A stretch of 64,000 bases of DNA. Origin: Sialis fuliginosa. Lineage: Eukaryota; Arthropoda; Insecta; Megaloptera; Sialidae. Position numbers and translations under genes: made by a program. Below the pieces are notes generated by a model. The model saw only the letters and a program-made list of their open reading frames with translations. It was not told the DNA's origin and did not search any database. Every line of letters starts with the position of its first letter. The stretch's first letter is position 1. The stretch is taken from positions 16,742,501-16,806,500 of the forward strand of contig OY540822.1 in NCBI GenBank assembly GCA_961205875.1, written 5' to 3'. This document shows, piece after piece, positions 23,309 to 64,000 of the stretch.

Positions 23309-23367
23309 TGTTGTCCAGTGCAAAATCTCTCTGCGGGCCGCCGTTTACGTGTTAATGGGCCTTTAAT
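23309..23367 (+). repeat. Single 59-bp fragment of the 121-bp satellite
   Basis: TGTTGTCCAGTGCAAAATCT and the following bases through TTAATGGGC match the satellite of 44353-64000 with one mismatch near the right end. It is in the same orientation as the array and about 21 kb from it. The rest of the monomer is absent on both sides. Confidence 0.93.
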
Positions 23368-23628: not shown

Positions 23629-24255
23629 CCATCAGAAAATCCTGTGGATTATTAGAATAGAAAAGGATTTCATTCTATTATATTACAAGGTATTCTATTA
23701 TTTTATGTAACTTTATATGTATAACATATTAATAAAATCGTTTTATTGTAGGTGTTTGTGATCATCGAGCACGTTTTATCGATGTTTTTGTTGGAATGCC
23801 AGGGCGAATGCATGACGCAAAGGTTTTTCGGAATAGTCCCATTTTTCATCGACTGAACAATGAAGAAATTCCACTCTTGCCGGGGAACATGCACATAATT
23901 GGTGACTCTGCGTATCCACTACAGAAAAATGTAGGTAATGACACCATTTCGTGATAATGGCCATCTAACACCTGCACAAAGGCTATATAATAGAAAATTC
24001 AACTCTATTAGATCAATTATTGAAAGGGCATTTGGTCTTTTGAAAGTCAAATTTCGTAGACTGAAGTACCTCTATATTACTGATTTTCAACTAGGCAATA
24101 AGATAACAGCTTGTTGCATCTTGCATAGTTTTATAATAAACCGAAATGACGTTAATTTTGAAGATGAAGAATTCAACATTGATGAGGCAGATAATGTTGT
24201 AGAAAAAGAATTCAATCAGGAAGCTAATGAAAAAAGAAATATCATATCTTTTTGA
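23629..24255 (+). pseudogene. PIF/Harbinger (HARBI1-like) transposase remnant with intron, stop and frameshift
   Basis: An exon at 23629-23689 (acceptor TTTTAG, donor GTATTC) encodes PSENPVDY, a TAG stop, then NRKGFHSIILQ. The next exon starts at 23752 (acceptor TTGTAG) with GVCDHRARFIDVFVGMPGRM, HDAKVFRNS and GDSAYPL. At about 23935 the frame shifts, then MTPFRDNGHLTPAQRLYNRK and IERAFGLLK run on to a stop at 24255. These are the DDE_Tnp_4 blocks, with the catalytic GDS aspartate and the ERAFG glutamate region still present. The N-terminal third, including the AIDGTH block, is missing; upstream is satellite-like and unrelated DNA. The family normally excises and integrates DNA at TA-rich 3-bp targets. 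This copy cannot encode an active protein as it stands. Confidence 0.85.
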
Positions 24256-24414: not shown

Positions 24415-25147
24415 TGGTTCTGATGTATATATGATGTGTGCCTGGTATAAGGTTTTCTCTACATGGTTCTGATGAATATATGACGTTCTGTGACTGGCGT
24501 AAATTATAATTGTGTACTTACATTTTGTGTATGAGTGTATTCGTTTGATTTTTACTTCCATGTTCTGAAATAAATGGAAGTATTGTAATACCATCGAAAA
24601 AAAGGTCTTCAGTTGTTTTTCAATAGAATGACTTTTTTTTAGTAATTATGAGTAAACTAATTACAGTTTATATAATTATATGATCAAAAAAAAAGTTATT
24701 CAGTTCAAAATTATAATAATTTTTTCAAATTTTACATATTTTGGGGCCCCCCGAGCTACTAGTTGTGGCCCTGATCATATCCCCCCCCCCAAACCCATCG
24801 CAAAAAGCTATCTACGCTACTGATCTGTTCTTGATATAACATTATGTCTAATCGACTGTATTTACTGGGATTTTTTAGTAAAATGTGAAAAACTCGAGTT
24901 GTAACGAACACCAACACGTATATGAGTGTTTTAACTTACGATCAAACTATACTACTAATTCATGTTTAATTTATTTTAATATGTAAAACTGAGTATAGTG
25001 TTCGAACTGTTACTTATTTTTAAACATTATATTTTATAATTTGCATTTAGAAAAATAAACAGTATGTCAATGATGAGATCCAAAAAACGATTTCTAGAAA
25101 CGGCTGTTTTCTCTACAGGTTCTGATGAATATATGATGTGTGCCTGG

Positions 25148-25800
25148 CAGACTTTTGTAGTTCACGAACGAACTAGTTCAAAAGAGCGCTCCCACACGAG
25201 AACTAGAGGAACTAGTTCGTATGCGCTCCGTTCTTTTAGTTCAATAGTTCCCGATACACTTCAAATACACTGTTCTAAAAATGAGATTGTACGATTTTTA
25301 TGTTTAATAATTTATGTTTTCAATACTTTATTACTAATTTGGATTTATTTTACTAAAGATATATTATATTAAATTTTTTTGGTTCACATGAATGCAATAT
25401 GTCTTTCAAAAGGACGTGATTTTTATACTATTTTATGACAATCATCAAAAAGGAATGTCACAGATTTTAATGAAATTTAAATATATTGCTTATATTACTC
25501 TACAGTAAATAATGTTTCAAAATATTCATATATATCGAGGGTTCGATTTAGAAAAAAGAAGATTATTGCAAATATATACATTTAAAAATATCGATCTTGT
25601 CTATAAATTAATAACGAATTCAAAATTGCAGCAGTTTGCATTTCTATCCAATCCAATATATCTAAATCAATAAATTTTGTCATCGTATAGTTCGGAAAAA
25701 AATTCTATGAACTAAAAGAACTAGAAGAACGAACTAGTTCATTAAAGATTACTGAACTATAGGGAGCGCTCTCTGTCATGAACTAAAATGCCCAACTCTA
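25148..25800 (+). mobile_element. hAT-like MITE copy at the left inversion junction
   Basis: A 653-bp element starting CAGACTTTTGTAGTTC and ending GCCCAACTCTA. The left flank is GTGCCTGG (minus-orientation minisatellite) and the right flank is ATTATAAT, so its two sides do not match. The matching GTGCCTGG is found next to the hAT end at 41888. This copy is therefore a recombinant. Confidence 0.88.
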
Positions 25801-25827
25801 ATTATAATTTACGCCAGTCACAGAACG

Positions 25828-26099
25828 TCATATATTCATCAGAACCATGTAGAGAAAACCTTATACCAGGCACTTATGATATATTCATCAGAACCTGTAG
25901 AGAAAACATTATACCAGGCACATATGATATATTCATCAGAACCTGTAGAGAAAACATTATACCAGGCACATATGATATATTCATCAGAACCTGTAGAGAA
26001 AACATTATACCTGGCACATATTATATATTCATCAGAACCTGTAGAGAAAACCTTATACCTGGCACACATCATATATTCATCAGAACCTGTAGAGAAAAC
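25828..26099 (+). repeat. 48-bp minisatellite, long type
   Basis: Between five and six tandem copies of a 48-bp repeat built on ATATTCATCAGAACCTGTAG, GAGAAAACMTTATACC and WGGCACA. Because 48 is divisible by three, open frames of 100-107 codons appear on both strands; they lack any coding evidence. Other arrays of this repeat: 27388-27513, 30343-30471, 31750-31843, 32728-32854, 35688-35812, 37096-37191, 38076-38203, 40998-41171, 41803-41887 and 42165-42345. Confidence 0.93.
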
Positions 26100-26702
26100 A
26101 GCCGTTTCTAGAAATCGTTTTTTGGATCTCATCATCGACATACTGTTTATTTTTCTAATTGCAAATTATAAAATATAATGTTTAAAAATAAGTAACAGTT
26201 TGAACACTATACTCAGTTTTACATATTAAAATAAATTAAACATGAATTAGTAGTATGGTTTGATCGTAAGTTAAAACACTCATATACGTGTTGGTGTTCG
26301 TTACAACTCTAGTTATTCACATTTTACTAAAAAATCCCAGTAAATACAGTCGATTAGACATAATGTTATATCAAGAACAGATCAGTAGCGTAGATAGCTT
26401 TTTGCGATGGGCTGGGGGGGGGGGATATGACCAGGGCCACAACTAGAAGCTTGGGGGGCCCCAAAATATGTAAAATTAAAAAAAATTATTATAATTTTGA
26501 ACTGAATAACCTTTTTTTTGATCATATAATTATATAAACTGTAATTAGTTTACTCATTATTACTAAAAAAAAGTCATTCTATTGAAAAACAACTGAAGAC
26601 CTTTTTTTCGATGGTATTACAATACTTCCATTTATTTCAGAACATGGAAGTAAAAATCAAACGAATACACTCATACACAAAATGTAAGTACACAATTATA
26701 AT

Positions 26703-27355
26703 TAGACTTGTGTAGTTCACGAACGAACTAGTTCAAAAGAGCGCTCCCACACGAGAACTAGAGGAACTAGTTCGTATGCGCTCCGTTCTTTTAGTTCAAT
26801 AGTTCCCGATACACTTCAAATACACTGTTCTAAAAATGAGATTGTACGATTTTTATGTTTAATAATTTATGTTTTCAATACTTTATTACTAATTTGGATT
26901 TATTTTACTAAAGATATATTATATTAAATTTTTTTGGTTCACATGAATGCAATATGTCTTTCAAAAGGACGTGATTTTTATACTATTTTATGACAATCAT
27001 CAAAAAGGAATGTCACAGATTTTAATGAAATTTAAATATATTGCTTATATTACTCTACAGTAAATAATGTTTCAAAATATTCATATATATCGAGGGTTCG
27101 ATTTAGAAAAAAGAAGATTATTGCAAATATATACATTTAAAAATATCGATCTTGTCTATAAATTAATAACGAATTCAAAATTGCAGCAGTTTGCATTTCT
27201 ATCCAATCCAATATATCTAAATCAATAAATTTTGTCATCGTATAGTTCGGAAAAAAATTCTATGAACTAAAAGAACTAGAAGAACGAACTAGTTCATTAA
27301 AGATTACTGAACTATAGGGAGCGCTCTCTGTCATGAACTAAAATGCCCAACTCTA
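26703..27355 (+). mobile_element. hAT-like MITE, 653 bp, TSD ATTATAAT
   Basis: Termini TAGACTTGTGTAGTTC and GCCCAACTCTA (reverse complement TAGAGTTGGGC) share TAGASTTG. ATTATAAT flanks both ends exactly (26695-26702 and 27356-27363). The empty site is seen at 41765-41780. The interior is rich in GAACTAGTTC palindromes and AGCGCTC near both ends; there is no transposase. The 8-bp duplication and termini indicate hAT. Confidence 0.9.
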
Positions 27356-28113
27356 ATTATAATTTACGCAAGTCACAGAACGTCATATATTCATCAGAAC
27401 CATGTAGAGAAAACCTTATACCAGGCACACATCATATATTCATCAGAACCTGTAGAGAAAACCTTATACCTGGCACACATCATATATTCATCAGAACCTG
27501 TAGAGAAAACAGCCGTTTCTAGAAATCGTTTTTTGGATCTCATCATCGACATACTGTTTATTTTTCTAATTGCAAATTATAAAATATAATGTTTAAAAAT
27601 AAGTAACAGTTTGAACACTATACTCAGTTTTACATATTAAAATAAATTAAACATGAATTAGTAGTATAGTTTGATCGTAAGTTAAAACACTCATATACGT
27701 GTTGGTGTTCGTTACAACTCTAGTTATTCACATTTTACTAAAAAATCCCAGTAAATACAGTCGATTAGACATAATGTTATATCAAGAACAGATCAGTAGC
27801 GTAGATAGCTTTTTGCGATGGGCTGGGGGGGGGGGATATGACCAGGGCCACAACTAGAAGCTTGGGGGGCCCCAAAATATGTAAAATTAAAAAAAATTAT
27901 TATAATTTTGAACTGAATAACCTTTTTTTTGATCATATAATTATATAAACTGTAATTAGTTTACTCATTATTACTAAAAAAAAGTCATTCTATTGAAAAA
28001 CAACTGAAGACCTTTTTTTCGATGGTATTACAATACTTCCATTTATTTCAGAACATGGAAGTAAAAATCAAACGAATACACTCATACACAAAATGTAAGT
28101 ACACAATTATAAT

Positions 28114-28766
28114 TAGACTTGTGTAGTTCACGAACGAACTAGTTCAAAAGAGCGCTCCCACACGAGAACTAGAGGAACTAGTTCGTATGCGCTCCGTTCT
28201 TTTAGTTCAATAGTTCCCGATACACTTCAAATACACTGTTCTAAAAATGAGATTGTACGATTTTTATGTTTAATAATTTATGTTTTCAATACTTTATTAC
28301 TAATTTGGATTTATTTTACTAAAGATATATTATATTAAATTTTTTTGGTTCACATGAATGCAATATGTCTTTCAAAAGGACGTGATTTTTATACTATTTT
28401 ATGACAATCATCAAAAAGGAATGTCACAGATTTTAATGAAATTTAAATATATTGCTTATATTACTCTACAGTAAATAATGTTTCAAAATATTCATATATA
28501 TCGAGGGTTCGATTTAGAAAAAAGAAGATTATTGCAAATATATACATTTAAAAATATCGATCTTGTCTATAAATTAATAACGAATTCAAAATTGCAGCAG
28601 TTTGCATTTCTATCCAATCCAATATATCTAAATCAATAAATTTTGTCATCGTATAGTTCGGAAAAAAATTCTATGAACTAAAAGAACTAGAAGAACGAAC
28701 TAGTTCATTAAAGATTACTGAACAATAGGGAGCGCTCTCTGTCATGAACTAAAATGCCCAACTCTA
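28114..28766 (+). mobile_element. hAT-like MITE copy
   Basis: 653 bp, same termini and ATTATAAT flanks as the copy at 26703. It was amplified with its unit, not inserted separately, since every plus-strand copy sits at the same base of the spacer. Confidence 0.9.
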
Positions 28767-28793
28767 ATTATAATTTACGCCAGTCACAGAACG

Positions 28794-29065
28794 TCATATA
28801 TTCATCAGAACCATGTAGAGAAAACCTTATACCAGGCACTTATGATATATTCATCAGAACCTGTAGAGAAAACATTATACCAGGCACATATGATATATTC
28901 ATCAGAACCTGTAGAGAAAACATTATACCAGGCACATATGATATATTCATCAGAACCTGTAGAGAAAACATTATACCTGGCACATATTATATATTCATCA
29001 GAACCTGTAGAGAAAACCTTATACCTGGCACACATCATATATTCATCAGAACCTGTAGAGAAAAC
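28794..29065 (+). repeat. 48-bp minisatellite, long type
   Basis: Same variant order as the array at 25828-26099 (CTTATG, CATATG, CATATG, CATATT, CACATC), showing that the two were copied as blocks. Confidence 0.92.
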
Positions 29066-29657
29066 AGCCGTTTCTAGAAATCGTTTTTTGGATCTCATCA
29101 TCGACATACTGTTTATTTTTCTAATTGCAAATTATAAAATATAATGTTTAAAAATAAGTAACAGTTTGAACACTATACTCAGTTTTACATATTAAAATAA
29201 ATTAAACATGAATTAGTAGTATGGTTTGATCGTAAGTTAAAACACTTCGTTACAACTCTAGTTATTCACATTTTACTAAAAAATCCCAGTAAATACAGTC
29301 GATTAGACATAATGTTATATCAAGAACAGATCAGTAGCGTAGATAGCTTTTTGCGATGGGCTGGGGGGGGGGGGGGGGGGATATGACCAGGGCCACAACT
29401 AGAAGCTTGGGGGGCCCCAAAATATGTAAAATTAAAAAAAATTATTATAATTTTGAACTGAATAACCTTTTTTTGATCATATAATTATATAAACTGTAAT
29501 TAGTTTACTCATTATTACTAAAAAAAAGTCATTCTATTGAAAAACAACTGAAGACCTTTTTTTCGATGGTATTACAATACTTCCATTTATTTCAGAACAT
29601 GGAAGTAAAAATCAAACGAATACACTCATACACAAAATGTAAGTACACAATTATAAT

Positions 29658-30310
29658 TAGACTTGTGTAGTTCACGAACGAACTAGTTCAAAAGAGCGCT
29701 CCCACACGAGAACTAGAGGAACTAGTTCGTATGCGCTCCGTTCTTTTAGTTCAATAGTTCCCGATACACTTCAAATACACTGTTCTAAAAATGAGATTGT
29801 ACGATTTTTATGTTTAATAATTTATGTTTTCAATACTTTATTACTAATTTGGATTTATTTTACTAAAGATATATTATATTAAATTTTTTTGGTTCACATG
29901 AATGCAATATGTCTTTCAAAAGGACGTGATTTTTATACTATTTTATGACAATCATCAAAAAGGAATGTCACAGATTTTAATGAAATTTAAATATATTGCT
30001 TATATTACTCTACAGTAAATAATGTTTCAAAATATTCATATATATCGAGGGTTCGATTTAGAAAAAAGAAGATTATTGCAAATATATACATTTAAAAATA
30101 TCGATCTTGTCTATAAATTAATAACGAATTCAAAATTGCAGCAGTTTGCATTTCTATCCAATCCAATATATCTAAATCAATAAATTTTGTCATCGTATAG
30201 TTCGGAAAAAAATTCTATGAACTAAAAGAACTAGAAGAACGAACTAGTTCATTAAAGATTACTGAACTATAGGGAGCGCTCTCTGTCATGAACTAAAATG
30301 CCCAACTCTA
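29658..30310 (+). mobile_element. hAT-like MITE copy
   Basis: 653 bp at the same unit position; near-identical to its neighbours. Confidence 0.9.
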
Positions 30311-31068
30311 ATTATAATTTACGCAAGTCACAGAACGTCATATATTCATCAGAACCATGTAGAGAAAACCTTATACCAGGCACACATCATATATTCATCA
30401 GAACCTGTAGAGAAAACCTTATACCTGGCACACATCATATATTCATCAGAACCTGTAGAGAAAACAGCCGTTTCTAGAAATCGTTTTTTGGATCTCATCA
30501 TCGACATACTGTTTATTTTTCTAATTGCAAATTATAAAATATAATGTTTAAAAATAAGTAACAGTTTGAACACTATACTCAGTTTTACATATTAAAATAA
30601 ATTAAACATGAATTAGTAGTATAGTTTGATCGTAAGTTAAAACACTCATATACGTGTTGGTGTTCGTTACCACTCTAGTTATTCACATTTTACTAAAAAA
30701 TCCCAGTAAATACAGTCGATTAGACATAATGTTATATCAAGAACAGATCAGTAGCGTAGATAGCTTTTTGCGATGGGCTGGGGGGGGGGGATATGACCAG
30801 GGCCACAACTAGAAGCTTGGGGGGCCCCAAAATATGTAAAATTAAAAAAAATTATTATAATTTTGAACTGAATAACCTTTTTTTTGATCATATAATTATA
30901 TAAACTGTAATTAGTTTACTCATTATTACTAAAAAAAAGTCATTCTATTGAAAAACAACTGAAGACCTTTTTTTCGATGGTATTACAATACTTCCATTTA
31001 TTTCAGAACATGGAAGTAAAAATCAAACGAATACACTCATACACAAAATGTAAGTACACAATTATAAT

Positions 31069-31721
31069 TAGACTTGTGTAGTTCACGAACGAACTAGTTC
31101 AAAAGAGCGCTCCCACACGAGAACTAGAGGAACTAGTTCGTATGCGCTCCGTTCTTTTAGTTCAATAGTTCCCGATACACTTCAAATACACTGTTCTAAA
31201 AATGAGATTGTACGATTTTTATGTTTAATAATTTATGTTTTCAATACTTTATTACTAATTTGGATTTATTTTACTAAAGATATATTATATTAAATTTTTT
31301 TGGTTCACATGAATGCAATATGTCTTTCAAAAGGACGTGATTTTTATACTATTTTATGACAATCATCAAAAAGGAATGTCACAGATTTTAATGAAATTTA
31401 AATATATTGCTTATATTACTCTACAGTAAATAATGTTTCAAAATATTCATATATATCGAGGGTTCGATTTAGAAAAAAGAAGATTATTGCAAATATATAC
31501 ATTTAAAAATATCGATCTTGTCTATAAATTAATAACGAATTCAAAATTGCAGCAGTTTGCATTTCTATCCAATCCAATATATCTAAATCAATAAATTTTG
31601 TCATCGTATAGTTCGGAAAAAAATTCTATGAACTAAAAGAACTAGAAGAACGAACTAGTTCATTAAAGATTACTGAACTATAGGGAGCGCTCTCTGTCAT
31701 GAACTAAAATGCCCAACTCTA
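31069..31721 (+). mobile_element. hAT-like MITE copy, unit with Helitron
   Basis: 653 bp; followed by the two-copy minisatellite that the Helitron at 31844 interrupts. Confidence 0.9.
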
Positions 31722-31843
31722 ATTATAATTTACGCAAGTCACAGAACGTTATATATTCATCAGAACCATGTAGAGAAAACCTTATACCAGGCACACATCA
31801 TATATTCATCAGAACCTGTAGAGAAAACCTTATACCAGGCACA

Positions 31844-31867
31844 TCCTTAATATATATAAAGCTCAAC

Positions 31868-31898
<31 letters not shown>

Positions 31899-32727
31899 CG
31901 TTAGTTACCTTATCACTCGAGAACCACTTATCCGATTTACGAGTTTTTTTTTTTAATTCATAGGTACGTTCTCTGGCCAGGTTATAGGCTATATTTTTTT
32001 ACGTTAGGTAACATAACAACAAAGCAGTGATGATAATAGTAAATCAAGTCGGAAAAAATTTTGCCGTCGGCGCGCTGTTTTGTAATACGCTGCCTAAACC
32101 GTTCAATATAGAACAAAATAATGTATTAAAGAATTGTGTAGAATCAAAAGTTCTACAATTAAGTCAGCGACACGATATGTCTAACTTTTATATTTAAGCC
32201 ACAATGACTGCTTTTATGTTACAAAAAAAACATAAAATATTTGGATTTTGTTTACATGGACTTATGACCTGCAAAACATTAATCCTTATCGAAATAAATG
32301 ATTTCATCGTCATAAGTACTTAATGTAGATATAGTTTGCCATTTACAGCATCCAATTTGGTCGTATAGTTTAGAAAATATCTTAAAATATATTTATAAAG
32401 GTAACATTTTAAATGTATGGTGTCGTGCCGCATCGAAGCGATGTACATCAGACTGGATTCGCTTACGTTCGGTAGATATTCGGAGTCCCTCGGCTGACGT
32501 TTGAGTTAATTTTGTTTTCAATAATTAACATTTAAATTTAAACAGAACACAAATTATTTGTACTTTTTTCTTCTGATTCGTTTTTGTTAGGTAATTTAGG
32601 TATTGATAAATTATTATTACAATAATAACTAATCGTGTTTGTACTTAATTAATTAAACTATATTTTTCAAAAATCCTAAACAATAATTCCGTAGTCTACG
32701 CGAGCGAAGCCGCGTGGGCCCAGCTAG
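31844..32727 (+). mobile_element. Non-autonomous Helitron, 884 bp
   Basis: Starts TCCTTAATATATATAAAGC and ends with a hairpin (ACGCG...CGCGT) about ten bases before CTAG. It interrupts the minisatellite exactly between A and T: CCAGGCACA on the left and TATGATATATT on the right recreate the uninterrupted repeat with no duplication, as expected for Helitrons. A CTGT tetranucleotide run lies near the 5' end. No Rep/helicase coding is present. Confidence 0.9.
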
Positions 32728-33463
32728 TATGATATATTGATCAGAACCTGTAGAGAAAACATTATACCAGGCACATATCATATATTCATCAGAACCTGTA
32801 GAGAAAACCTTATACCAGGCACATATCATATATTCATCAGAACCTGTAGAGAAAACAGCCGTTTCTAGAAATCGTTTTTTTGATCTCATCATCGACATAC
32901 TGTTTATTTTTCTAATTGCAAATTATAAAATATAATGTTTAAAAATAAGTAACAGTTTGAACACTATACTCAGTTTTACATATTAAAATAAATTAAACAT
33001 GAATTAGTAGTATAGTTTGATCGTAAGTTAAAACACTCATATACGTGTTGGTGTTCGTTACAACTCGAGTTTTTCACATTTTACTAAAAAATCCCAGTAA
33101 ATACAGTCGATTAGACATAATGTTATATCAAGAACAGATCAGTAGCGTAGATAGCTTTTTGCGATGGGCTGGGGGGGGGGGGGGGATATGACCAGGGCCA
33201 CAACTAGAAGCTTGGGGGGCCCCAAAATATGTAAAATTAAAAAAAATTATTATAATTTTGAACTGAATAACCTTTTTTTTGATCATATAATTATATAAAC
33301 TGTAATTAGTTTACTCATTATTACTAAAAAAAAGTCATTCTATTGAAAAACAACTGAAGACCTTTTTTTCGATGGTATTACAATACTTCCATTTATTTCA
33401 GAACATGGAAGTAAAAATCAAACGAATACACTCATACACAAAATGTAAGTACACAATTATAAT

Positions 33464-34116
33464 TAGACTTGTGTAGTTCACGAACGAACTAGTTCAAAAG
33501 AGCGCTCCCACACGAGAACTAGAGGAACTAGTTCGTATGCGCTCCGTTCTTTTAGTTCAATAGTTCCCGATACACTTCAAATACACTGTTCTAAAAATGA
33601 GATTGTACGATTTTTATGTTTAATAATTTATGTTTTCAATACTTTATTACTAATTTGGATTTATTTTACTAAAGATATATTATATAAAATTTTTTTGGTT
33701 CACATGAATGCAATATGTCTTTCAAAAGGACGTGATTTTTATACTATTTTATGACAATCATCAAAAAGGAATGTCACAGATTTTAATGAAATTTAAATAT
33801 ATTGCTTATATTACTCTACAGTAAATAATGTTTCAAAATATTCATATATATCGAGGGTTCGATTTAGAAAAAAGAAGATTATTGCAAATATATACATTTA
33901 AAAATATCGATCTTGTCTATAAATTAATAACGAATTCAAAATTGCAGCAGTTTGCATTTCTATCCAATCCAATATATCTAAATCAATAAATTTTGTCATC
34001 GTATAGTTCGGAAAAAAATTCTATGAACTAAAAGAACTAGAAGAACGAACTAGTTCATTAAAGATTACTGAACAATAGGGAGCGCTCTCTGTCATGAACT
34101 AAAATGCCCAACTCTA
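33464..34116 (+). mobile_element. hAT-like MITE copy
   Basis: 653 bp. It carries TATATAAAATTTTTTTGG where most copies have TATATTAAA, a variant shared with the copies at 38811 and 40317. Confidence 0.9.
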
Positions 34117-34143
34117 ATTATAATTTACGCCAGTCACAGAACG

Positions 34144-34413
34144 TCATATATTCATCAGAACCATGTAGAGAAAACCTTATACCAGGCACTTATGAGATAT
34201 TCATCAGAACCTGTAGAGAAAACATTATACCAGGCACATATGATATATTCATCAGAACCTGTAGAGAAAACATTATACCAGGCACATATGATATATTCAT
34301 CAGAACCTGTAGAGAAAACATTATACCTGGCACATATTATATATTCATCAGAACCTGTAGAGAAAACCTTATACCTGGCACATATCATATATTCATCAGA
34401 ACCTGTAGAGAAA
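34144..34413 (+). repeat. 48-bp minisatellite, long type
   Basis: As 28794-29065 but with CTTATGAGAT in the first full unit and CATATC in the last. Confidence 0.92.
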
Positions 34414-35005
34414 ACAGCCGTTTCTAGAAATCGTTTTTTGGATCTCATCATCGACATACTGTTTATTTTTCTAATTGCAAATTATAAAATATAATGTTTA
34501 AAAATAAGTAACAGTTTGAACACTATACTCAGTTTTACATATTAAAATAAATTAAACATGAATTAGTAGTATGGTTTGATCGTAAGTTAAAACACTTCGT
34601 TACAACTCTAGTTATTCACATTTTACTAAAAAATCCCAGTAAATACAGTCGATTAGACATAATGTTATATCAAGAACAGATCAGTAGCGTAGATAGCTTT
34701 TTGCGATGGGCTGGGGGGGGGGGGGGGGATATGACCAGGGCCACAACTAGAAGCTTGGGGGGCCCCAAAATATGTAAAATTAAAAAAAATTATTATAATT
34801 TTGAACTGAATAACCTTTTTTTGATCATATAATTATATAAACTGTAATTAGTTTACTCATTATTACTAAAAAAAAGTCATTCTATTGAAAAACAACTGAA
34901 GACCTTTTTTTCGATGGTATTACAATACTTCCATTTATTTCAGAACATGGAAGTAAAAATCAAACGAATACACTCATACACAAAATGTAAGTACACAATT
35001 ATAAT

Positions 35006-35658
35006 TAGACTTGTGTAGTTCACGAACGAACTAGTTCAAAAGAGCGCTCCCACACGAGAACTAGAGGAACTAGTTCGTATGCGCTCCGTTCTTTTAGTTC
35101 AATAGTTCCCGATACACTTCAAATACACTGTTCTAAAAATGAGATTGTACGATTTTTATGTTTAATAATTTATGTTTTCAATACTTTATTACTAATTTGG
35201 ATTTATTTTACTAAAGATATATTATATTAAATTTTTTTGGTTCACATGAATGCAATATGTCTTTCAAAAGGACGTGATTTTTATACTATTTTATGACAAT
35301 CATCAAAAAGGAATGTCACAGATTTTAATGAAATTTAAATATATTGCTTATATTACTCTACAGTAAATAATGTTTCAAAATATTCATATATATCGAGGGT
35401 TCGATTTAGAAAAAAGAAGATTATTGCAAATATATACATTTAAAAATATCGATCTTGTCTATAAATTAATAACGAATTCAAAATTGCAGCAGTTTGCATT
35501 TCTATCCAATCCAATATATCTAAATCAATAAATTTTGTCATCGTATAGTTCGGAAAAAAATTCTATGAACTAAAAGAACTAGAAGAACGAACTAGTTCAT
35601 TAAAGATTACTGAACTATAGGGAGCGCTCTCTGTCATGAACTAAAATGCCCAACTCTA
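35006..35658 (+). mobile_element. hAT-like MITE copy
   Basis: 653 bp; equivalent to 29658 in the previous 5.35-kb higher-order repeat. Confidence 0.9.
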
Positions 35659-36416
35659 ATTATAATTTACGCAAGTCACAGAACGTCATATATTCATCAG
35701 AACCATGTAGAGAAAACCTTATACCAGGCACACATCATATATTCATCAGAACCTGTAGAGAAAACCTTATACCTGGCACACATCATATATTCATCAGAAC
35801 CTGTAGAGAAAACAGCCGTTTCTAGAAATCGTTTTTTGGATCTCATCATCGACATACTGTTTATTTTTCTAATTGCAAATTATAAAATATAATGTTTAAA
35901 AATAAGTAACAGTTTGAACACTATACTCAGTTTTACATATTAAAATAAATTAAACATGAATTAGTAGTATAGTTTGATCGTAAGTTAAAACACTCATATA
36001 CGTGTTGGTGTTCGTTACCACTCTAGTTATTCACATTTTACTAAAAAATCCCAGTAAATACAGTCGATTAGACATAATGTTATATCAAGAACAGATCAGT
36101 AGCGTAGATAGCTTTTTGCGATGGGCTGGGGGGGGGGGATATGACCAGGGCCACAACTAGAAGCTTGGGGGGCCCCAAAATATGTAAAATTAAAAAAAAT
36201 TATTATAATTTTGAACTGAATAACCTTTTTTTTGATCATATAATTATATAAACTGTAATTAGTTTACTCATTATTACTAAAAAAAAGTCATTCTATTGAA
36301 AAACAACTGAAGACCTTTTTTTCGATGGTATTACAATACTTCCATTTATTTCAGAACATGGAAGTAAAAATCAAACGAATACACTCATACACAAAATGTA
36401 AGTACACAATTATAAT

Positions 36417-37069
36417 TAGACTTGTGTAGTTCACGAACGAACTAGTTCAAAAGAGCGCTCCCACACGAGAACTAGAGGAACTAGTTCGTATGCGCTCCGT
36501 TCTTTTAGTTCAATAGTTCCCGATACACTTCAAATACACTGTTCTAAAAATGAGATTGTACGATTTTTATGTTTAATAATTTATGTTTTCAATACTTTAT
36601 TACTAATTTGGATTTATTTTACTAAAGATATATTATATTAAATTTTTTTGGTTCACATGAATGCAATATGTCTTTCAAAAGGACGTGATTTTTATACTAT
36701 TTTATGACAATCATCAAAAAGGAATGTCACAGATTTTAATGAAATTTAAATATATTGCTTATATTACTCTACAGTAAATAATGTTTCAAAATATTCATAT
36801 ATATCGAGGGTTCGATTTAGAAAAAAGAAGATTATTGCAAATATATACATTTAAAAATATCGATCTTGTCTATAAATTAATAACGAATTCAAAATTGCAG
36901 CAGTTTGCATTTCTATCCAATCCAATATATCTAAATCAATAAATTTTGTCATCGTATAGTTCGGAAAAAAATTCTATGAACTAAAAGAACTAGAAGAACG
37001 AACTAGTTCATTAAAGATTACTGAACTATAGGGAGCGCTCTCTGTCATGAACTAAAATGCCCAACTCTA
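36417..37069 (+). mobile_element. hAT-like MITE copy, unit with second Helitron
   Basis: 653 bp; equivalent to 31069, offset 5348 bp. Confidence 0.9.
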
Positions 37070-37191
37070 ATTATAATTTACGCAAGTCACAGAACGTTAT
37101 ATATTCATCAGAACCATGTAGAGAAAACCTTATACCAGGCACACATCATATATTCATCAGAACCTGTAGAGAAAACCTTATACCAGGCACA

Positions 37192-37215
37192 TCCTTAATA
37201 TATATAAAGCTCAAC

Positions 37216-37246
<31 letters not shown>

Positions 37247-38075
37247 CGTTAGTTACCTTATCACTCGAGAACCACTTATCCGATTTACGAGTTTTTTTTT
37301 TTAATTCATAGGTACGTTCTCTGGCCAGGTTATAGGCTATATTTTTTTACGTTAGGTAACATAACAACAAAGCAGTGATGATAATAGTAAATCAAGTCGG
37401 AAAAAATTTTGCCGTCGGCGCGCTGTTTTGTAATACGCTGCCTAAACCGTTCAATATAGAACAAAATAATGTATTAAAGAATTGTGTAGAATCAAAAGTT
37501 CTACAATTAAGTCAGCGACACGATATGTCTAACTTTTATATTTAAGCCACAATGACTGCTTTTATGTTACAAAAAAAACATAAAATATTTGGATTTTGTT
37601 TACATGGACTTATGACCTGCAAAACATTAATCCTTATCGAAATAAATGATTTCATCGTCATAAGTACTTAATGTAGATATAGTTTGCCATTTACAGCATC
37701 CAATTTGGTCGTATAGTTTAGAAAATATCTTAAAATATATTTATAAAGGTAACATTTTAAATGTATGGTGTCGTGCCGCATCGAAGCGATGTACATCAGA
37801 CTGGATTCGCTTACGTTCGGTAGATATTCGGAGTCCCTCGGCTGACGTTTGAGTTAATTTTGTTTTCAATAATTAACATTTAAATTTAAACAGAACACAA
37901 ATTATTTGTACTTTTTTCTTCTGATTCGTTTTTGTTAGGTAATTTAGGTATTGATAAATTATTATTACAATAATAACTAATCGTGTTTGTACTTAATTAA
38001 TTAAACTATATTTTTCAAAAATCCTAAACAATAATTCCGTAGTCTACGCGAGCGAAGCCGCGTGGGCCCAGCTAG
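37192..38075 (+). mobile_element. Non-autonomous Helitron, second copy, 884 bp
   Basis: Same length, termini, insertion base and flanks as the copy 5348 bp upstream. It was duplicated with the array unit and is not a second insertion. Confidence 0.9.
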
Positions 38076-38810
38076 TATGATATATTGATCAGAACCTGTA
38101 GAGAAAACATTATACCAGGCACATATCATATATTCATCAGAACCTGTAGAGAAAACCTTATACCAGGCACATATCATATATTCATCAGAACCTGTAGAGA
38201 AAACAGCCGTTTCTAGAAATCGTTTTTTTGATCTCATCATCGACATACTGTTTATTTTTCTAATTGCAAATTATAAAATATAATGTTTAAAAATAAGTAA
38301 CAGTTTGAACACTATACTCAGTTTTACATATTAAAATAAATTAAACATGAATTAGTAGTATAGTTTGATCGTAAGTTAAAACACTCATATACGTGTTGGT
38401 GTTCGTTACAACTCGAGTTTTTCACATTTTACTAAAAAATCCCAGTAAATACAGTCGATTAGACATAATGTTATATCAAGAACAGATCAGTAGCGTAGAT
38501 AGCTTTTTGCGATGGGCTGGGGGGGGGGGGGGATATGACCAGGGCCACAACTAGAAGCTTGGGGGGCCCCAAAATATGTAAAATTAAAAAAAATTATTAT
38601 AATTTTGAACTGAATAACCTTTTTTTTGATCATATAATTATATAAACTGTAATTAGTTTACTCATTATTACTAAAAAAAAGTCATTCTATTGAAAAACAA
38701 CTGAAGACCTTTTTTTCGATGGTATTACAATACTTCCATTTATTTCAGAACATGGAAGTAAAAATCAAACGAATACACTCATACACAAAATGTAAGTACA
38801 CAATTATAAT

Positions 38811-39463
38811 TAGACTTGTGTAGTTCACGAACGAACTAGTTCAAAAGAGCGCTCCCACACGAGAACTAGAGGAACTAGTTCGTATGCGCTCCGTTCTTTT
38901 AGTTCAATAGTTCCCGATACACTTCAAATACACTGTTCTAAAAATGAGATTGTACGATTTTTATGTTTAATAATTTATGTTTTCAATACTTTATTACTAA
39001 TTTGGATTTATTTTACTAAAGATATATTATATAAAATTTTTTTGGTTCACATGAATGCAATATGTCTTTCAAAAGGACGTGATTTTTATACTATTTTATG
39101 ACAATCATCAAAAAGGAATGTCACAGATTTTAATGAAATTTAAATATATTGCTTATATTACTCTACAGTAAATAATGTTTCAAAATATTCATATATATCG
39201 AGGGTTCGATTTAGAAAAAAGAAGATTATTGCAAATATATACATTTAAAAATATCGATCTTGTCTATAAATTAATAACGAATTCAAAATTGCAGCAGTTT
39301 GCATTTCTATCCAATCCAATATATCTAAATCAATAAATTTTGTCATCGTATAGTTCGGAAAAAAATTCTATGAACTAAAAGAACTAGAAGAACGAACTAG
39401 TTCATTAAAGATTACTGAACAATAGGGAGCGCTCTCTGTCATGAACTAAAATGCCCAACTCTA
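38811..39463 (+). mobile_element. hAT-like MITE copy
   Basis: 653 bp; equivalent to 33464, offset 5347 bp, sharing its TATATAAAA variant. Confidence 0.9.
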
Positions 39464-39491
39464 ATTATAATTTACGCCAGTCACAGAACGT

Positions 39492-39713
39492 CATATATTC
39501 ATCAGAACCATGTAGAGAAAACCTTATACCAGGCACTTATGAGATATTCATCAGAACCTGTAGAGAAAACATTATACCAGGCACATATGATATATTCATC
39601 AGAACCTGTAGAGAAAACATTATACCTGGCACATATTATATATTCATCAGAACCTGTAGAGAAAACCTTATACCTGGCACATATCATATATTCATCAGAA
39701 CCTGTAGAGAAAA
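39492..39713 (+). repeat. 48-bp minisatellite, one unit shorter
   Basis: Equivalent to 34144-34413 (shares CTTATGAGAT) with exactly one 48-bp unit lost. Confidence 0.92.
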
Positions 39714-40316
39714 CAGCCGTTTCTAGAAATCGTTTTTTGGATCTCATCATCGACATACTGTTTATTTTTCTAATTGCAAATTATAAAATATAATGTTTAA
39801 AAATAAGTAACAGTTTGAACACTATACTCAGTTTTACATATTAAAATAAATTAAACATGAATTAGTAGTATGGTTTGATCGTAAGTTAAAACACTCATAT
39901 ACGTGTTGGTGTTCGTTACAACTCTAGTTATTCACATTTTACTAAAAAATCCCAGTAAATACAGTCGATTAGACATAATGTTATATCAAGAACAGATCAG
40001 TAGCGTAGATAGCTTTTTGCGATGGGCTGGGGGGGGGGGATATGACCAGGGCCACAACTAGAAGCTTGGGGGGCCCCAAAATATGTAAAATTAAAAAAAA
40101 TTATTATAATTTTGAACTGAATAACCTTTTTTTGATCATATAATTATATAAACTGTAATTAGTTTACTCATTATTACTAAAAAAAAGTCATTCTATTGAA
40201 AAACAACTGAAGACCTTTTTTTCGATGGTATTACAATACTTCCATTTATTTCAGAACATGGAAGTAAAAATCAAACGAATACACTCATACACAAAATGTA
40301 AGTACACAATTATAAT

Positions 40317-40969
40317 TAGACTTGTGTAGTTCACGAACGAACTAGTTCAAAAGAGCGCTCCCACACGAGAACTAGAGGAACTAGTTCGTATGCGCTCCGT
40401 TCTTTTAGTTCAATAGTTCCCGATACACTTCAAATACACTGTTCTAAAAATGAGATTGTACGATTTTTATGTTTAATAATTTATGTTTTCAATACTTTAT
40501 TACTAATTTGGATTTATTTTACTAAAGATATATTATATAAAATTTTTTTGGTTCACATGAATGCAATATGTCTTTCAAAAGGACGTGATTTTTATACTAT
40601 TTTATGACAATCATCAAAAAGGAATGTCACAGATTTTAATGAAATTTAAATATATTGCTTATATTACTCTACAGTAAATAATGTTTCAAAATATTCATAT
40701 ATATCGAGGGTTCGATTTAGAAAAAAGAAGATTATTGCAAATATATACATTTAAAAATATCGATCTTGTCTATAAATTAATAACGAAATCAAAATTGCAG
40801 CAGTTTGCATTTCTATCCAATCCAATATATCTAAATCAATAAATTTTGTCATCTTATAGTTCGGAAAAAAATTCTATGAACTAAAAGAACTAGAATAACG
40901 AACTAGTTCATTAAAGACTACTGAACTATAGGGAGCGCTCTCTGTCATGAACTAAAATGCCCAACTCTA
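40317..40969 (+). mobile_element. hAT-like MITE copy
   Basis: 653 bp; the most diverged plus-strand copy (for example ACGAAATC, ATCTTATAG and AGAATAACG variants), as expected for an array-edge unit. Confidence 0.9.
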
Positions 40970-41887
40970 ATTATAATTTACGCCAGTCACAGAACGTCAT
41001 ATATTCATCAGAACCTGTAGAGAAAACCTTATACCAGGCACATATGATATATTCATCAGAACCTGTAGAGAAAACATTATACCAGGCACATATGATATAT
41101 TCATCAGAACCTGTAGAGAAAACCTTATACCAGGCACATATCATATATTCATCAGAACCTGTAGAGAAAACAGCCGTTTCTAGAAATCGTTTTTTGGATC
41201 TCATCATCGACATACTGTTTATTTTTCTAATTGCAAATTATAAAATATAATGTTTAAAAATAAGTAACAGTTTGAACACTATACTCAGTTTTACATATTA
41301 AAATAAATTAAACATGAATTAGTAGTATAGTTTGATCGTAAGTTAAAACACTCATATACGTGTTGGTGTTCGTTACAACTCGAGTTTTTCACATTTTACT
41401 AAAAAATCCCAGTAAATACAGTCGATTAGACATAATGTTATATCAAGAACAGATCAGTAGCGTAGATAGCTTTTTGCGATGGGTTGGCGGGGGGGGATAT
41501 GACCAGGGCCACAACTAGAAGCTCGGGGGGCCCCAAAATATGTAAAATTAAAAAAAATTATTATAATTTTGAACTGAATAACCTTTTTTTTGATCATATA
41601 ATTATATAAACTGTAATTAGTTTACTCATTATTACTAAAAAAAAGTCATTCTATTGAAAAACAACTGAAGACCTTTTTTTCGATGGTATTACAATACTTC
41701 CATTTATTTCAGAACATGGAAGTAAAAATCAAACGAATACACTCATACACAAAATGTAAGTACACAATTATAATTTACGCCAGTCACAGAACGTCATATA
41801 TTCATCAGAACCATGTAGAGAAAACCTTATACCAGGCACACATCATATATTCATCAGAACCTGTAGAGAAAACCTTATACCAGGCAC

Positions 41888-42079
41888 TAGAGTTGGGCAT
41901 TTTAGTTCATGACAGAGAGCGCTCCCTATAGTTCAGTAATCTTTAATGAACTAGTTCGTTCTTCTAGTTCTTTTAGTTCATAGAATTTTTTTCCGAAATA
42001 TACGATGACAAAATTTATTGATTTAGATATATTGGATTGGATAGAAATGCAAACTGCTGCAATTTTGAATTCGTTATTA
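41888..42079 (-). mobile_element. Truncated hAT-like MITE at the right inversion junction
   Basis: Begins TAGAGTTGGGC directly after CCAGGCAC of the plus-orientation minisatellite (reverse complement GTGCCTGG) and stops after about 192 bp at TTATTA, where spacer sequence resumes. Its outer flank is the partner of the one at 25140-25147. Confidence 0.88.
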
Positions 42080-42371
42080 TTTTTAAACATTATATTTTAT
42101 AATTTGCAATTAGAAAAATAAACAGTATGTCGATGATGAGATCCAAAAAACGATTTCTAGAAACGGCTGTTTTCTCTACAGGTTCTGATGAATATATGAT
42201 GTGTGCCTGGTATAAGGTTTTCTCTACAGGTTCTGATGAATATATGATATGTTCCTGGTATAAGGTTTTCTCTACAGGTTCTGATGAATATATGATGTGT
42301 GCCTGGTATAAGGTTTTCTCTACATGGTTCTGATGAATATATGACGTTCTGTGACTGGCGTAAATTATAAT

Positions 42372-43016
42372 TAGAGTTGGGCATTTTAGTTCATGACAGA
42401 GAGCGCTCCCTATGGTTCAGTAATCTTTAATGAACTAGTTCGTTCTTCTAGTTCTTTTAGTTCATAGAATTTTTTTCCGAACTATACGATGACAAAATTT
42501 ATTGATTTAGATATATTGGATTGGATAGAAATGCAAACTGCTGCAATTTTGAATTCGTTATTAATTTATAGACAAGATCGATATTTTTAAATGTATATAT
42601 TTGCAATAATCTTCTTTTTTCTAAATCGAACCCTCGATATATATGAATATTTTGAAACATTATTTACTGTAGAGTAATATAAGCAATATATTTAAATTTC
42701 ATTAAAATCTGTGACATTCCTTTTTGATGATTGTCATAAAATAGTATAAAAATCACGTCCTTTTGAAAGACATATTGCATTCATGTGAACCAAAAAAATT
42801 TAATATAATATATCTTTAGTAAAATAAATCCAAATAAGTAATAAAGTATTGAAAACATAAATTATTAAACATAAAAATCGTACAATCTCATTTTTAGAAC
42901 AGTGTATTTGAAGTGTATCGGGAACTATTGAACTAAAAGAACGGAGCGCATACGAACTAGTTCCTCTAGTGGGAGCGCTCCTTTGAACTAGTTCGTTCGT
43001 GAACTACACAAGTCTA
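42372..43016 (-). mobile_element. hAT-like MITE copy, minus orientation
   Basis: 645 bp, with ATTATAAT on both sides. It has a small deletion near 42970 relative to the plus-strand copies (CACACGAGAACTAG region shortened). Confidence 0.9.
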
Positions 43017-43973: not shown

Positions 43974-44352
43974 ATTAGTGTTGGGCATTTTAGTTCATGA
44001 CAGAGATTGCTCCCTATAGTTCAGTAATCTTTAATGAACTAGTTCGTTCTTCTAGTTCTTTTAGTTCATAGAATTTTTTTCCGAACTATACGATGACAAG
44101 TTTTATTGATTTAGATATTATATTGGATTGGATAGAAATGCAAACTGCTGCAATTTTGAATTCGTTATTAATTTATAGACAAGATCGATATTTTTAAATG
44201 TATATATTTGCAATAATCTTCTTTTTTTTAAATCGAACCCTCGATATATATGAATATTTCGAAACATTATTTACTGTAGAGTAATATATGCAATATATTT
44301 AAATTTCATTAAAATCTGTGACATTCCTTTTTGTTGATTGTCATAAAATAGT
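43974..44352 (-). mobile_element. hAT-like MITE cut off by the satellite array
   Basis: Starts TAGTGTTGGGC after an ATTATAAT flank and runs in minus orientation to CATAAAATAGT, where the 121-bp satellite begins. The remaining 270 bp or so are missing. Confidence 0.88.
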
Positions 44353-47300
44353 TTGTGTTAATGGGCTTTTAATTTTATCGCTCCGAATCGCGAAATTAGG
44401 GTGTCTATCGTGTAGGAAATCGGCCGCCGGTCACTTGTTGTTCAGTGCAAAATCTCTCTGCGGGCCGCCGTTTACGTGTTAATGGGCTTTTAATTTTATC
44501 GCTCCGAATCGCGAAATTAGGGTGTCTATCGTGTAGGAAATCGGCCGCCGGTCACTTGTTGTCCAGTGCAAAATCTCTCTGCGGGCCGCCGTTTACGTGT
44601 TAATGGGCTTTTAATTTTATCGCTCCGAATCGCGAAATTAGGGTGTCTATCGTGTAGGAAATCGGCCGCCGGTCACTTGTTGTCCAGTGCAAAATCTCTC
44701 TGCGGGCCGCCGTTTACGTGTTAATGGGCTTTTAATTTTATCGCTCCGAATCGTAAAATTAGGGTGTCTATCGTGTAGGAAATCGGCCGCCGGTCACTTG
44801 TTGTCCAGTGCAAAATCTCTCTGCGGGCCGCCGTTTACGTGTTAATGGGCTTTTAATTTTATCGCTCCGAATCGCGAAATTAGGGTGTCTATCGTGTAGG
44901 AAATCGGCCGCCGGTCACTTGTTGTCCAGTGCAAAATCTCTCTGCGGGCCGCCGTTTACGTGTTAATGGGCTTTTAATTTTATCGCTCCGAATCGTAAAA
45001 TTAGGGTGTCTATCGTGTAGGAAATCGGCCGCCGGTCACTTGTTGTCCAGTGCAAAATCTATCTGCGGGCCGCCGTTTACGTGTTAATGGGCTTTTAATT
45101 TTATCGCTCCGAATCGCGAAATTAGGGTGTCTATCGTGTAGGAAATCGGCCGCCGGTCACTTGTTGTCCAGTGCAAAATCTCTCTGCGGGCCGCCGTTTA
45201 CGTGTTAATGGGCTTTTAATTTTATCGCTCCGAATCGTAAAATTAGGGTGTCTATCGTGTAGGAAATCGGCCGCCGGTCACTTGTTGTCCAGTGCAAAAT
45301 CTCTCTGCGGGCCGCCGTTTACGTGTTAATGGGCTTTTAATTTTATCGCTCCGAATCGTAAAATTAGGGTGTCTATCGTGTAGGAAATCGGCCGCCGGTC
45401 ACTTGTTGTCCAGTGCAAAATCTCTCTGCGGGCCGCCGTTTACGTGTTAATGGGCTTTTAATTTTATCGCTCCGAATCGTAAAATTAGGGTGTCTATCGT
45501 GTAGGAAATCGGCCGCCGGTCACTTGTTGTCCAGTGCAAAATCTCTCTGCGGGCCGCCGTTTACGTGTTAATGGGCTTTTAATTTTATCGCTCCGAATCG
45601 TAAAATTAGGGTGTCTATCGTGTAGGAAATCGACCGCCGGTCACTTGTTGTCCAGTGCAAAATCTCTCTGCGGGCCGCCGTTTACGTGTTAATGGGCTTT
45701 TAATTTTATCGCACCGAATCGTAAAATTAGGGTGTCTATCGTGTAGGAAATCGGCCGCCGGTCACTTGTTGTCCAGTGCAAAATCTCTCTGCGGGCCGCC
45801 GTTTACGTGTTAATGGGCTTTTAATTTTATCGCACCGAATCGTAAAATTAGGGTGTCTATCGTGTAGGAAATCGGCCGCCGGTCACTTGTTGTCCAGTGC
45901 AAAATCTCTCTGCGGGCCGCCGTTTACGTGTTAATGGGCTTTTAATTTTATCGCACCGAATCGTAAAATTAGGGTGTCTATCGTGTAGGAAATCGGCCGC
46001 CGGTCACTTGTTGTCCAGTGCAAAATCTCTCTGCGGGCCGCCGTTTACGTGTTAATGGGCTTTTAATTTTATCGCTCCGAATCGCAAAATTAGGGTGTCT
46101 ATCGTGTAGGAAATCGGCCGCCGGTCACTTGTTGTCCAGTGCAAAATCTCTCTGCGGGCCGCCGTTTACGTGTTAATGGGCTTTTAATTTTATCGCTCCG
46201 AATCGTAAAATTAGGGTGTCTATCGTGTAGGAAATCGGCCGCCGGTCACTTGTTGTCCAGTGCAAAATCTCTCTGCGGGCCGCCGTTTACGTGTTAATGG
46301 GCTTTTAATTTTATCGCTCCGAATCGTAAAATTAGGGTGTCTATCGTGTAGGAAATCGGCCGCCGGTCACTTGTTGTCCAGTGCAAAATCTCTCTGCGGG
46401 CCGCCGTTTACGTGTTAATGGGCTTTTAATTTTATCGCTCCGAATCGCAAAATTAGGGTGCCTATCGTGTAGGAAATCGACCGCCGGTCACTTGTTGTCC
46501 AGTGCAAAATCTCTCTGCGGGCCGCCGTTTACGTGTTAATGGGCTTTTAATTTTATCGCACCGAATCGTAAAATTAGGGTGTCTATCGTGTAGGAAATCG
46601 GCCGCCGGTCACTTGTTGTCCAGTGCAAAATCTCTCTGCGGGCCGCCGTTTACGTGTTAATGGGCTTTTAATTTTATCGCTCCGAATCGCAAAATTAGGG
46701 TGTCTATCGTGTAGGAAATCGGCCGCCGGTCACTTGTTGTCCAGTGCAAAATCTCTCTGCGGGCCGCCGTTTACGTGTTAATGGGCTTTTAATTTTATCG
46801 CACCGAATCGTAAAATTAGGGTGTCTATCGTGTAGGAAATCGGCCGCCGGTCACTTGTTGTCCAGTGCAAAATCTCTCTGCGGGCCGCCGTTTACGTGTT
46901 AATGGGCTTTTAATTTTATCGCTCCGAATCGCAAAATTAGGGTGTCTATCGTGTAGGAAATCGGCCGCCGGTCACTTGTTGTCCAGTGCAAAATCTCTCT
47001 GCGGGCCGCCGTTTACGTGTTAATGGGCTTTTAATTTTATCGCTCCGAATCGTAAAATTAGGGTGTCTATCGTGTAGGAAATCGGCCGCCGGTCACTTGT
47101 TGTCCAGTGCAAAATCTCTCTGCGGGCCGCCGTTTACGTGTTAATGGGCTTTTAATTTTATCGCTCCGAATCGTAAAATTAGGGTGTCTATCGTGTAGGA
47201 AATCGACCGCCGGTCACTTGTTGTCCAGTGCAAAATCTCTCTGCGGGCCGCCGTTTACGTGTTAATGGGCTTTTAATTTTATCGCACCGAATCGTAAAAT

Positions 47301-62300: not shown

Positions 62301-64000
62301 AATTAGGGTGTCTATCGTGTAGGAAATCGGCCGCCGGTCACTTGTTGTCCAGTGCAAAATCTCTCTGCGGGCCGCCGTTTACGTGTTAATGGGCTTTTAA
62401 TTTTATCGCTCCGAATCGTAAAATTAGGGTGTCTATCGTGTAGGAAATCGGCCGCCGGTCACTTGTTGTCCAGTGCAAAATCTCTCTGCGGGCCGCCGTT
62501 TACGTGTTAATGGGCTTTTAATTTTATCGCTCCGAATCGTAAAATTAGGGTGTCTATCGTGTAGGAAATCGACCGCCGGTCACTTGTTGTCCAGTGCAAA
62601 ATCTCTCTGCGGGCCGCCGTTTACGTGTTAATGGGCTTTTAATTTTATCGCACCGAATCGTAAAATTAGGGTGTCTATCGTGTAGGAAATCGGCCGCCGG
62701 TCACTTGTTGTCTAGTGCAAAATCTCTCTGCGGGCCGCCGTTTACGTGTTAATGGGCTTTTAATTTTATCGCTCCGAATCGCAAAATTAGGGTGTCTATC
62801 GTGTAGGAAATCGGCCGCCGGTCACTTGTTGTCCAGTGCAAAATCTATCTGCGGGCCGCCGTTTACGTGTTAATGGGCTTTTAATTTTATCGCTCCGAAT
62901 CGCAAAATTAGGGTGTCTATCGTGTAGGAAATCGGCCGCCGGTCACTTGTTGTCTAGTGCAAAATCTCTCTGCAGGCCGTCGTTTACGTGTTAATGGGCT
63001 TTTAATTTTATCGCACCGAATCGTAAAATTAGGGTGTCTATCGTGTAGGAAATCGACCGCCGGTCACTTGTTGTCCAGTGCAAAATCTCTCTGCGGGCCG
63101 CCGTTTACGTGTTAATGGGCTTTTAATTTTATCACTCCGAATCGCAAAATTAGGGTGTCTATCGTGTAGGAAATCGGCCGCCGGTCACTTGTTGTCCAGT
63201 GCAAAATCTCTCTGCGGGCCGCCGTTTACGTGTTAATGGGCTTTTAATTTTATCGCTCCGAATCGCGAAATTAGGGTGTCTATCGTGTAGGAAATCGACC
63301 GCCGGTCACTTGTTGTCCAGTGCAAAATCTCTCTGCGGGCCGCCGTTTACGTGTTAATGGGCTTTTAATTTTATCGCTCCGAATCGCAAAATTAGGGTGT
63401 CTATCGTGTAGGAAATCGACCGCCGGTCACTTGTTGTCCAGTGCAAAATCTCTCTGCGGGCCGCCGTTTACGTGTTAATGGGCTTTTAATTTTATCGCAC
63501 CGAATCGTAAAATTAGGGTGTCTATCGTGTAGGAAATCGGCCGCCGGTCACTTGTTGTCCAGTGCAAAATCTCTCTGCGGGCCGCCGTTTACGTGTTAAT
63601 GGGCTTTTAATTTTATCGCTCCGAATCGTAAAATTAGGGTGTCTATCGTGTAGGAAATCGGCCGCCGGTCACTTGTTGTCCAGTGCAAAATCTCTCTGCG
63701 GGCCGCCGTTTACGTGTTAATGGGCTTTTAATTTTATCGCACCGAATCGTAAAATTAGGGTGTCTATCGTGTAGGAAATCGGCCGCCGGTCACTTGTTGT
63801 CCAGTGCAAAATCTCTCTGCGGGCCGCCGTTTACGTGTTAATGGGCTTTTAATTTTATCACTCCGAATCGCAAAATTAGGGTGTCTATCGTGTAGGAAAT
63901 CGGCCGCCGGTCACTTGTTGTCCAGTGCAAAATCTCTCTGCGGGCCGCCGTTTACGTGTTAATGGGCTTTTAATTTTATCGCACCGAATCGTAAAATTAG
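44353..64000. repeat. 121-bp satellite DNA array, about 162 copies, continues past window
   Basis: Period 121 bp holds throughout (one 1-bp loss near 56337), all in one orientation, with no foreign insertion. The monomer contains TGTTGTCCAGTGC, CTGCGGGCCGCCGTTTACG, GGGCTTTTAATTTTATCG, AAATTAGGGTGTCTATCG and CGGCCGCCGGTCAC; G+C is about 50% with about 12 CpG. Copies differ at a few recurrent sites (GCTCC/GCACC, CGCGAAA/CGCAAAA/CGTAAAA, ATCGG/ATCGA, GTCCA/GTTCA/GTCTA). Marker variants recur at 2178, 3872 and 8711 bp, so the array is organised in higher-order duplications. Open frames in it are chance products. Confidence 0.98.

Follow-up and report, generated by a model that had tools for sequence, protein, structure and literature searches.

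Inversions whose breakpoints carry transposons have been described in several systems. In Drosophila buzzatii, inversions associated with Galileo, such as 2z3, have opposite-facing copies at both breakpoints with exchanged target-site duplications (TSDs), explained there by ectopic recombination; chimeric copies and deletions or duplications served to tell recombination from its alternatives (PMC2775673; this paper and the two that follow are cited from excerpts). In maize, reversed-ends transposition of Ac/fAc leaves one element inside the inverted segment and one just outside its far end, with an 8-bp TSD at both breakpoints, and a newly made TSD was the main criterion against recombination (PMC8225341). 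For hobo of Drosophila melanogaster, a review table lists the element as capable of mediating both recombination and inversions (PMC5977194). Here we describe an inversion of about 16.7 kb that is bounded by the ends of a hAT miniature inverted-repeat transposable element (MITE), with a split target duplication, in a subtelomeric tandem array. The array occupies 24.4–44.35 kb of the 64,000-nucleotide stretch analysed (the window; C14:16742501-16806500, from an assembly of 392 Mb in 20 contigs). The inversion is strongly supported.

The rearrangement is of a known kind. As in Galileo 2z3, opposite-facing transposon copies stand at both breakpoints, and the TSD halves that are preserved fit an exchange. 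However, Galileo belongs to the P superfamily, has 7-bp TSDs and had its chimerism shown by variants (PMC2775673), whereas here a hAT MITE with an 8-bp TSD lies in a tandem array, has too few variants for chimerism to be established and lacks one TSD half. The likeness to maize Ac/fAc extends to the hAT superfamily, the element inside and the element outside, the 8-bp TSD at both breakpoints and the donor ends in direct repeat; those events were seen de novo with known progenitors (PMC8225341), whereas ours is inferred from one sequence, involves non-autonomous copies and belongs to an animal-like genome. The hobo element is also a hAT, but is listed as autonomous, with no MITE in a satellite-like array (PMC5977194). 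In the excerpts of the literature that we searched for transposon-made inversions, we found no description of such an inversion by a hAT MITE within tandem repeats. The locus preserves, at base-pair resolution, the trace of an inversion made by a transposon in a subtelomeric tandem array.

Each array unit is built from a short flank, a minisatellite of 48-bp repeats in variable copy number and a block of about 600 bp (X). In most units a 653-bp hAT-like MITE with the TSD ATTATAAT separates X from the flank that follows (the canonical site). Plus-strand hATs begin at 25148, 26703, 28114, 29658, 31069, 33464, 35006, 36417, 38811 and 40317; minus-strand copies lie at 41888-42079 (a fragment), 42372-43016 and 43976-44352 (cut by satellite). 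Two units are without a hAT and carry a single ATTATAAT each, at 24503 (minus) and 41774 (plus). The preliminary description had the unit orientation switch at 25148 and 41888, and the 43 minisatellite cores bear this out, with two minus cores to the left, 34 plus cores between and seven minus cores to the right. In agreement with it, GTGCCTGG at 25140-25147 (plus), the left half of a split 8-bp target duplication, directly precedes the first base of the plus-strand 653-bp MITE at 25148-25800, and its reverse complement CCAGGCAC at 41880-41887 (minus), the right half, directly precedes the exact 3′ terminus of the minus-strand copy at 41888. Opposite-facing copies of one hAT family are thus found at both breakpoints, their termini carrying the split TSD, with one element inside the inversion and one outside.

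The two breakpoint copies differ in their state of preservation. On the left, the 5′ end of the copy adjoins GTGCCTGG and its 3′ end ATTATAAT (25801-25808, plus), the canonical-site TSD half and an 8-mer that is its own reverse complement; the copy carries the private changes C1 and T8 and the array allele G404. Just outside the right breakpoint is a 3′-terminal fragment of 192 bp (41888-42079, minus) from which the 5′ 461 bp are missing. At 42080 it is fused to the interior of the repeat block that follows, a minus-strand X-block remnant (42080-42168), with a 3-bp overlap (TTA) as microhomology. Three of the four TSD halves fit; since the copy at 41888 is only a fragment, the fourth was lost together with its 5′ part. 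The inverted segment itself (25148-41887, 16,740 bp) comprises ten plus-strand units of types A, B, A, B, C, A, B, C, A and D, followed by an empty site, a flank and minisatellite. To its left lies an edge unit (24416-25147, minus) of flank, X block and the start of the minisatellite, whose empty canonical site has its single ATTATAAT at 24503-24510. The empty site at the other end belongs to the X block at 41172-41774 (plus), with its single ATTATAAT at 41767-41774; once re-inverted, this block neighbours the empty left-edge unit.

We re-inverted the segment in silico by script, using three crossover points inside the hAT. Each gave GTGCCTGG-[653-bp hAT]-GTGCCTGG with an exact 8-bp duplication and brought all 60 counted 10-mer cores into one orientation (from 46 plus and 14 minus to 0 plus and 60 minus), both in line with the preliminary description. 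On the right side a hAT end also came to stand beside ATTATAAT. The claim that re-inversion rebuilds one hAT holds for a crossover inside the element and fails for one placed exactly at 25148/41888, which would not rebuild the hAT; the breakpoint must either lie inside the hAT, by recombination, or reflect termini that a transposase joined to the target. Removal of the hAT and one GTGCCTGG from the rebuilt site leaves an ordinary 750-bp unit, 97.9% identical to 27364-28113 with no gaps. Among offsets 0-16 the join is in phase at offset 8 only, the other 16 giving 39–44% position-by-position identity. The unoccupied canonical sites (24503 and 41774) become adjacent, with a single boundary between empty and occupied sites.

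A split TSD inside a minisatellite is nevertheless weaker evidence than it appears. Because both junctions sit in one minisatellite, odds of 4^-8 overstate the 8-bp match: when plus and minus 8-mers of the minisatellite are paired at random (2016 x 618), 1.4% of the pairs are reverse complements of each other, which makes the agreement worth about 1 in 70 instead of 1 in 65,536, and modest alone. Nor is the ungapped restored unit an independent test, since it and the TSD match both follow from the minisatellite register, of which they are two views. The case rests on the orientation flips falling exactly at opposite-facing hAT termini together with the TSD register; the weight beyond the 8-bp match comes from the exact hAT ends at both flips and from the empty units being made neighbours.

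Judged by its sequence, the MITE has the hAT superfamily features that we tested, namely an 8-bp TSD and short terminal inverted repeats with repeated subterminal motifs. The first 10 bp of its termini, TAGACTTGTG and TAGAGTTGGG, match at 8 of 10 positions, and the inverted matches near the ends include 11 bp that are exact and 35 bp at 83%. We examined 19 dispersed loci of the family (L011-L014 and L016-L030), 15 copies of which were aligned. Exact 8-bp duplications flank the aligned element ends at 16 of the 19 loci, and are not at those positions in L023, L027 and L028. Six of the 15 aligned copies differ by 0.3–0.8% substitutions from the array copy at 26703, five of these by 0.3–0.5%. The family was recently mobile; a separate near-identical insertion into the array would therefore be unremarkable.

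Our favoured account, to which we give about an even chance, is homologous recombination between an inserted hAT and an opposite-facing array copy. An ancestral tandem array of X-block and 48-bp minisatellite units, all minus, would have been entered at one site by a non-autonomous hAT (TSD ATTATAAT), and the hAT-bearing unit would have been amplified. A further hAT, in the opposite orientation, would have inserted into the minisatellite between two empty left-edge units with GTGCCTGG as its TSD. Homologous recombination between this hAT and an opposite-facing array copy would then have flipped the 16.7 kb, leaving a hAT at each breakpoint, that at 25148 inside the inversion and that at 41888 just outside it, with their TSDs exchanged; a deletion would have removed the 5′ 461 bp of the outer hAT. 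We infer both the order of these events and the joining of the ends by recombination instead of by a transposase. Where the preliminary description proposed recombination between opposite hAT copies, the inversion stands and the mechanism is unproven, as reversed-ends transposition gives the same anatomy. The two mechanisms both fit, and the sequence cannot tell which of them operated.

In reversed-ends (alternative) transposition, a transposase would have taken two ends that face each other, the 5′ end of an array hAT and the 3′ end of the next hAT in direct repeat, and put both into GTGCCTGG in a unit nearby. This single step would invert the segment between target and donor, split the TSD between the breakpoints and discard the piece between the hATs. 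We consider it a plausible course, albeit one about which we are somewhat doubtful. The anatomy is that of the maize Ac inversions (PMC8225341, as excerpted), the re-inverted array holds numerous hATs in direct orientation, with intact ends some 0.76–1.74 kb apart, and one event takes the place of two. On the other hand, it needs two tip mutations, as C1/T8 occurs in none of the ten other array copies that have a 5′ tip and in none of the 15 dispersed copies; it relies on a presumed active hAT transposase; and the segment loss that it predicts between the elements is not visible without a progenitor allele. The TSDs are of little help, since ATTATAAT is palindromic and common to the array copies and the TSD pattern is therefore the same under either mechanism. 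Likewise, the new-TSD criterion used in maize is not decisive here: had a hAT at GTGCCTGG taken part in recombination, both breakpoints would carry that TSD as well. Where array copies have been amplified, recombination and aberrant transposition cannot be told apart by a TSD that the copies share. With slightly more reserve still, we suggest that reversed-ends transposition of non-autonomous MITEs may have inverted the 16.7 kb of subtelomeric array in a single step; if so, array units with intact-ended, direct-orientation hAT MITEs would constitute a built-in substrate for such transposition.

Orientation changes in subtelomeric arrays are easily ascribed to assembly noise, and an inverted-repeat flip would yield identical junctions here if the assembler had mis-joined the minisatellite hAT with an opposite array hAT and inverted the intervening sequence, the more so as long repeats inside the array are about 93–100% identical to one another. 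We think this very improbable: the shared repeat now measures 192 bp on the right and 653 bp on the left, both of which long reads span, and the N-free satellite in the 10 kb past the window, together with 3.4 kb of telomere repeat at the end, is as expected of a long-read assembly. Still less probable is that two unrelated hAT insertions or conversions hit one minisatellite register in opposite orientations by chance. The register alone would match the 8-mers at the above rate of 1.4%, but each hAT must separately have lost its second TSD half, and such a coincidence leaves unexplained both the flips exactly at the hAT ends and the empty sites that re-inversion joins. Insertion of a composite (macrotransposon) was rejected, as one target half lies outside the segment and the other inside.

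Returning to recombination between the hAT copies, several observations weigh against it. The fourth TSD half is missing. A check for exchange of private variants found two private changes in the copy at 25148 (C1 and T8) and one in the 192-bp fragment at 41888 (T543), two further listed differences of the fragment being discounted as lying in the fused X tail; the two copies are too alike for a switch point to be mapped, and chimerism cannot be shown with so few variants. Site 404 is the only one that separates the inner array from every dispersed copy aligned. G404 is found in all nine other plus-strand array copies, in the copy at 42372 and in the piece on contig C13 described below, whereas A404 is found in all 14 dispersed copies that have a letter there and in the array copy at 43976. 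The copy at 25148 also has G, as the plus-strand array copies do, and so is of the inner-array type at this site. This is what reversed-ends transposition predicts; recombination would require either a crossover 5′ of 404 or an inserted hAT that was itself array-derived. An X-block tree groups the block at 41172 (empty site) with occupied plus units and leaves that at 43017 (occupied) outside, with support of 88/83, which is under the tool's mark for strong support. Finally, the uninverted allele was not found among the matches listed; in two genome searches 40 candidates were scored, out of 756 and 1587 at first look respectively, and further copies may exist.

The hAT at 43976-44352 (minus), cut by its junction with the 121-bp satellite, has A298 as do nine of the 15 dispersed copies, despite its canonical site, and its other differences are mostly private. 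Its alleles A298 and A404, against T298 and G404 in the inner array, perhaps reflect conversion or replacement inside the array. Unit histories look mosaic, and the history of the array is no simple series; neither the X-block tree nor A298 in this copy contradicts the inversion. Three candidate markers were rejected. The tip C1/T8 does not denote another hAT subfamily, as the dispersed copies have T1 in 14 of 15 cases (A in the other) and G8 in all 15. T611 of the copy at 25148, where three other type-A hATs have A611, is no mark of a chimera because the fragment at 41888 also has T and neither inversion product carries A611. T313, common to the X blocks at 24503 and 41172, does not indicate shared ancestry, as the C13 copy has it too; it is probably ancestral.

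The sole other full unit among the matches listed is at C13:17833510-17835166 (L034:3510-5166). It is permuted, in the order hAT(252-653)-flank-minisatellite-X-hAT(1-304), and the preserved ends of both hAT fragments adjoin ATTATAAT. It looks like a piece of the array inserted elsewhere, perhaps via a circle. Nearby, at L034:2379-3269, is a relative (97.9% identical) of an insert that the type C units of the array carry at 31844-32728 and, as a copy, at about 37192-38076; the insert has a GTCT run near its start and a CTAGT end, and is presumably Helitron-like, as are its copies. Part of X (query positions of about 105-430) matches a repeat family at 87–90%. Among the matches listed, 25 of 27 X-related places are no more than about 0.4 Mb away from the end of a contig (C4, C5, C9, C13 and C14), and the two away from the ends are C14:1895089 and C10:1806317. 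Within the array, 27385-34367 and 32732-39714 are overlapping copies that are 99.67% identical at a shift of 5,347 bp: a higher-order block of three units was recently duplicated in tandem.

Right of the inversion, the array continues with a 645-bp hAT at a canonical site (42372-43016, minus), and after the hAT at 43976 the 121-bp satellite array runs from 44355 to 64000 and past the window towards the chromosome end. It fills the 10 kb beyond the window without N, and the final 10 kb of the contig pass from this satellite through degenerate repeats and close with clean TTAGG repeat over about 3.4 kb, some 9.7 kb between these two stretches being unread. Such TTAGG repeats suggest an insect. 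The array is subtelomeric, about 50–70 kb from the contig end, because the satellite continues past the window and the contig closes with TTAGG repeat. In the telomere transition (L032:2933-10000), CCTAA-containing and TCCGG-rich degenerate repeats of opposite sense precede the 3.4 kb of clean AGGTT repeat. A 59-bp piece of the 121-bp satellite (23309-23367, 96.6% identical) lies some 1 kb to the left of the array and is oriented like the large array from 44355, with roughly 20 bp of the unit found at either edge. A literature search on a 121-bp aphid satellite found no paper.

Rfam at gathering threshold gave no match within 1-46000, ARAGORN found no genes in the whole window, and exact-pattern scans, one of viral contigs and one of genome contigs, returned no match. 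Directly adjoining the array on its left, at 23736-24255, is a DDE_Tnp_4 transposase relic in two frames, presumably PIF/Harbinger-like. Weak CRAL_TRIO matches, under the curated cut-off, lie at 21064-21997, and an open reading frame with a C2H2 zinc finger (PF00096, E 2.7e-08) is found at 418-729 (minus).

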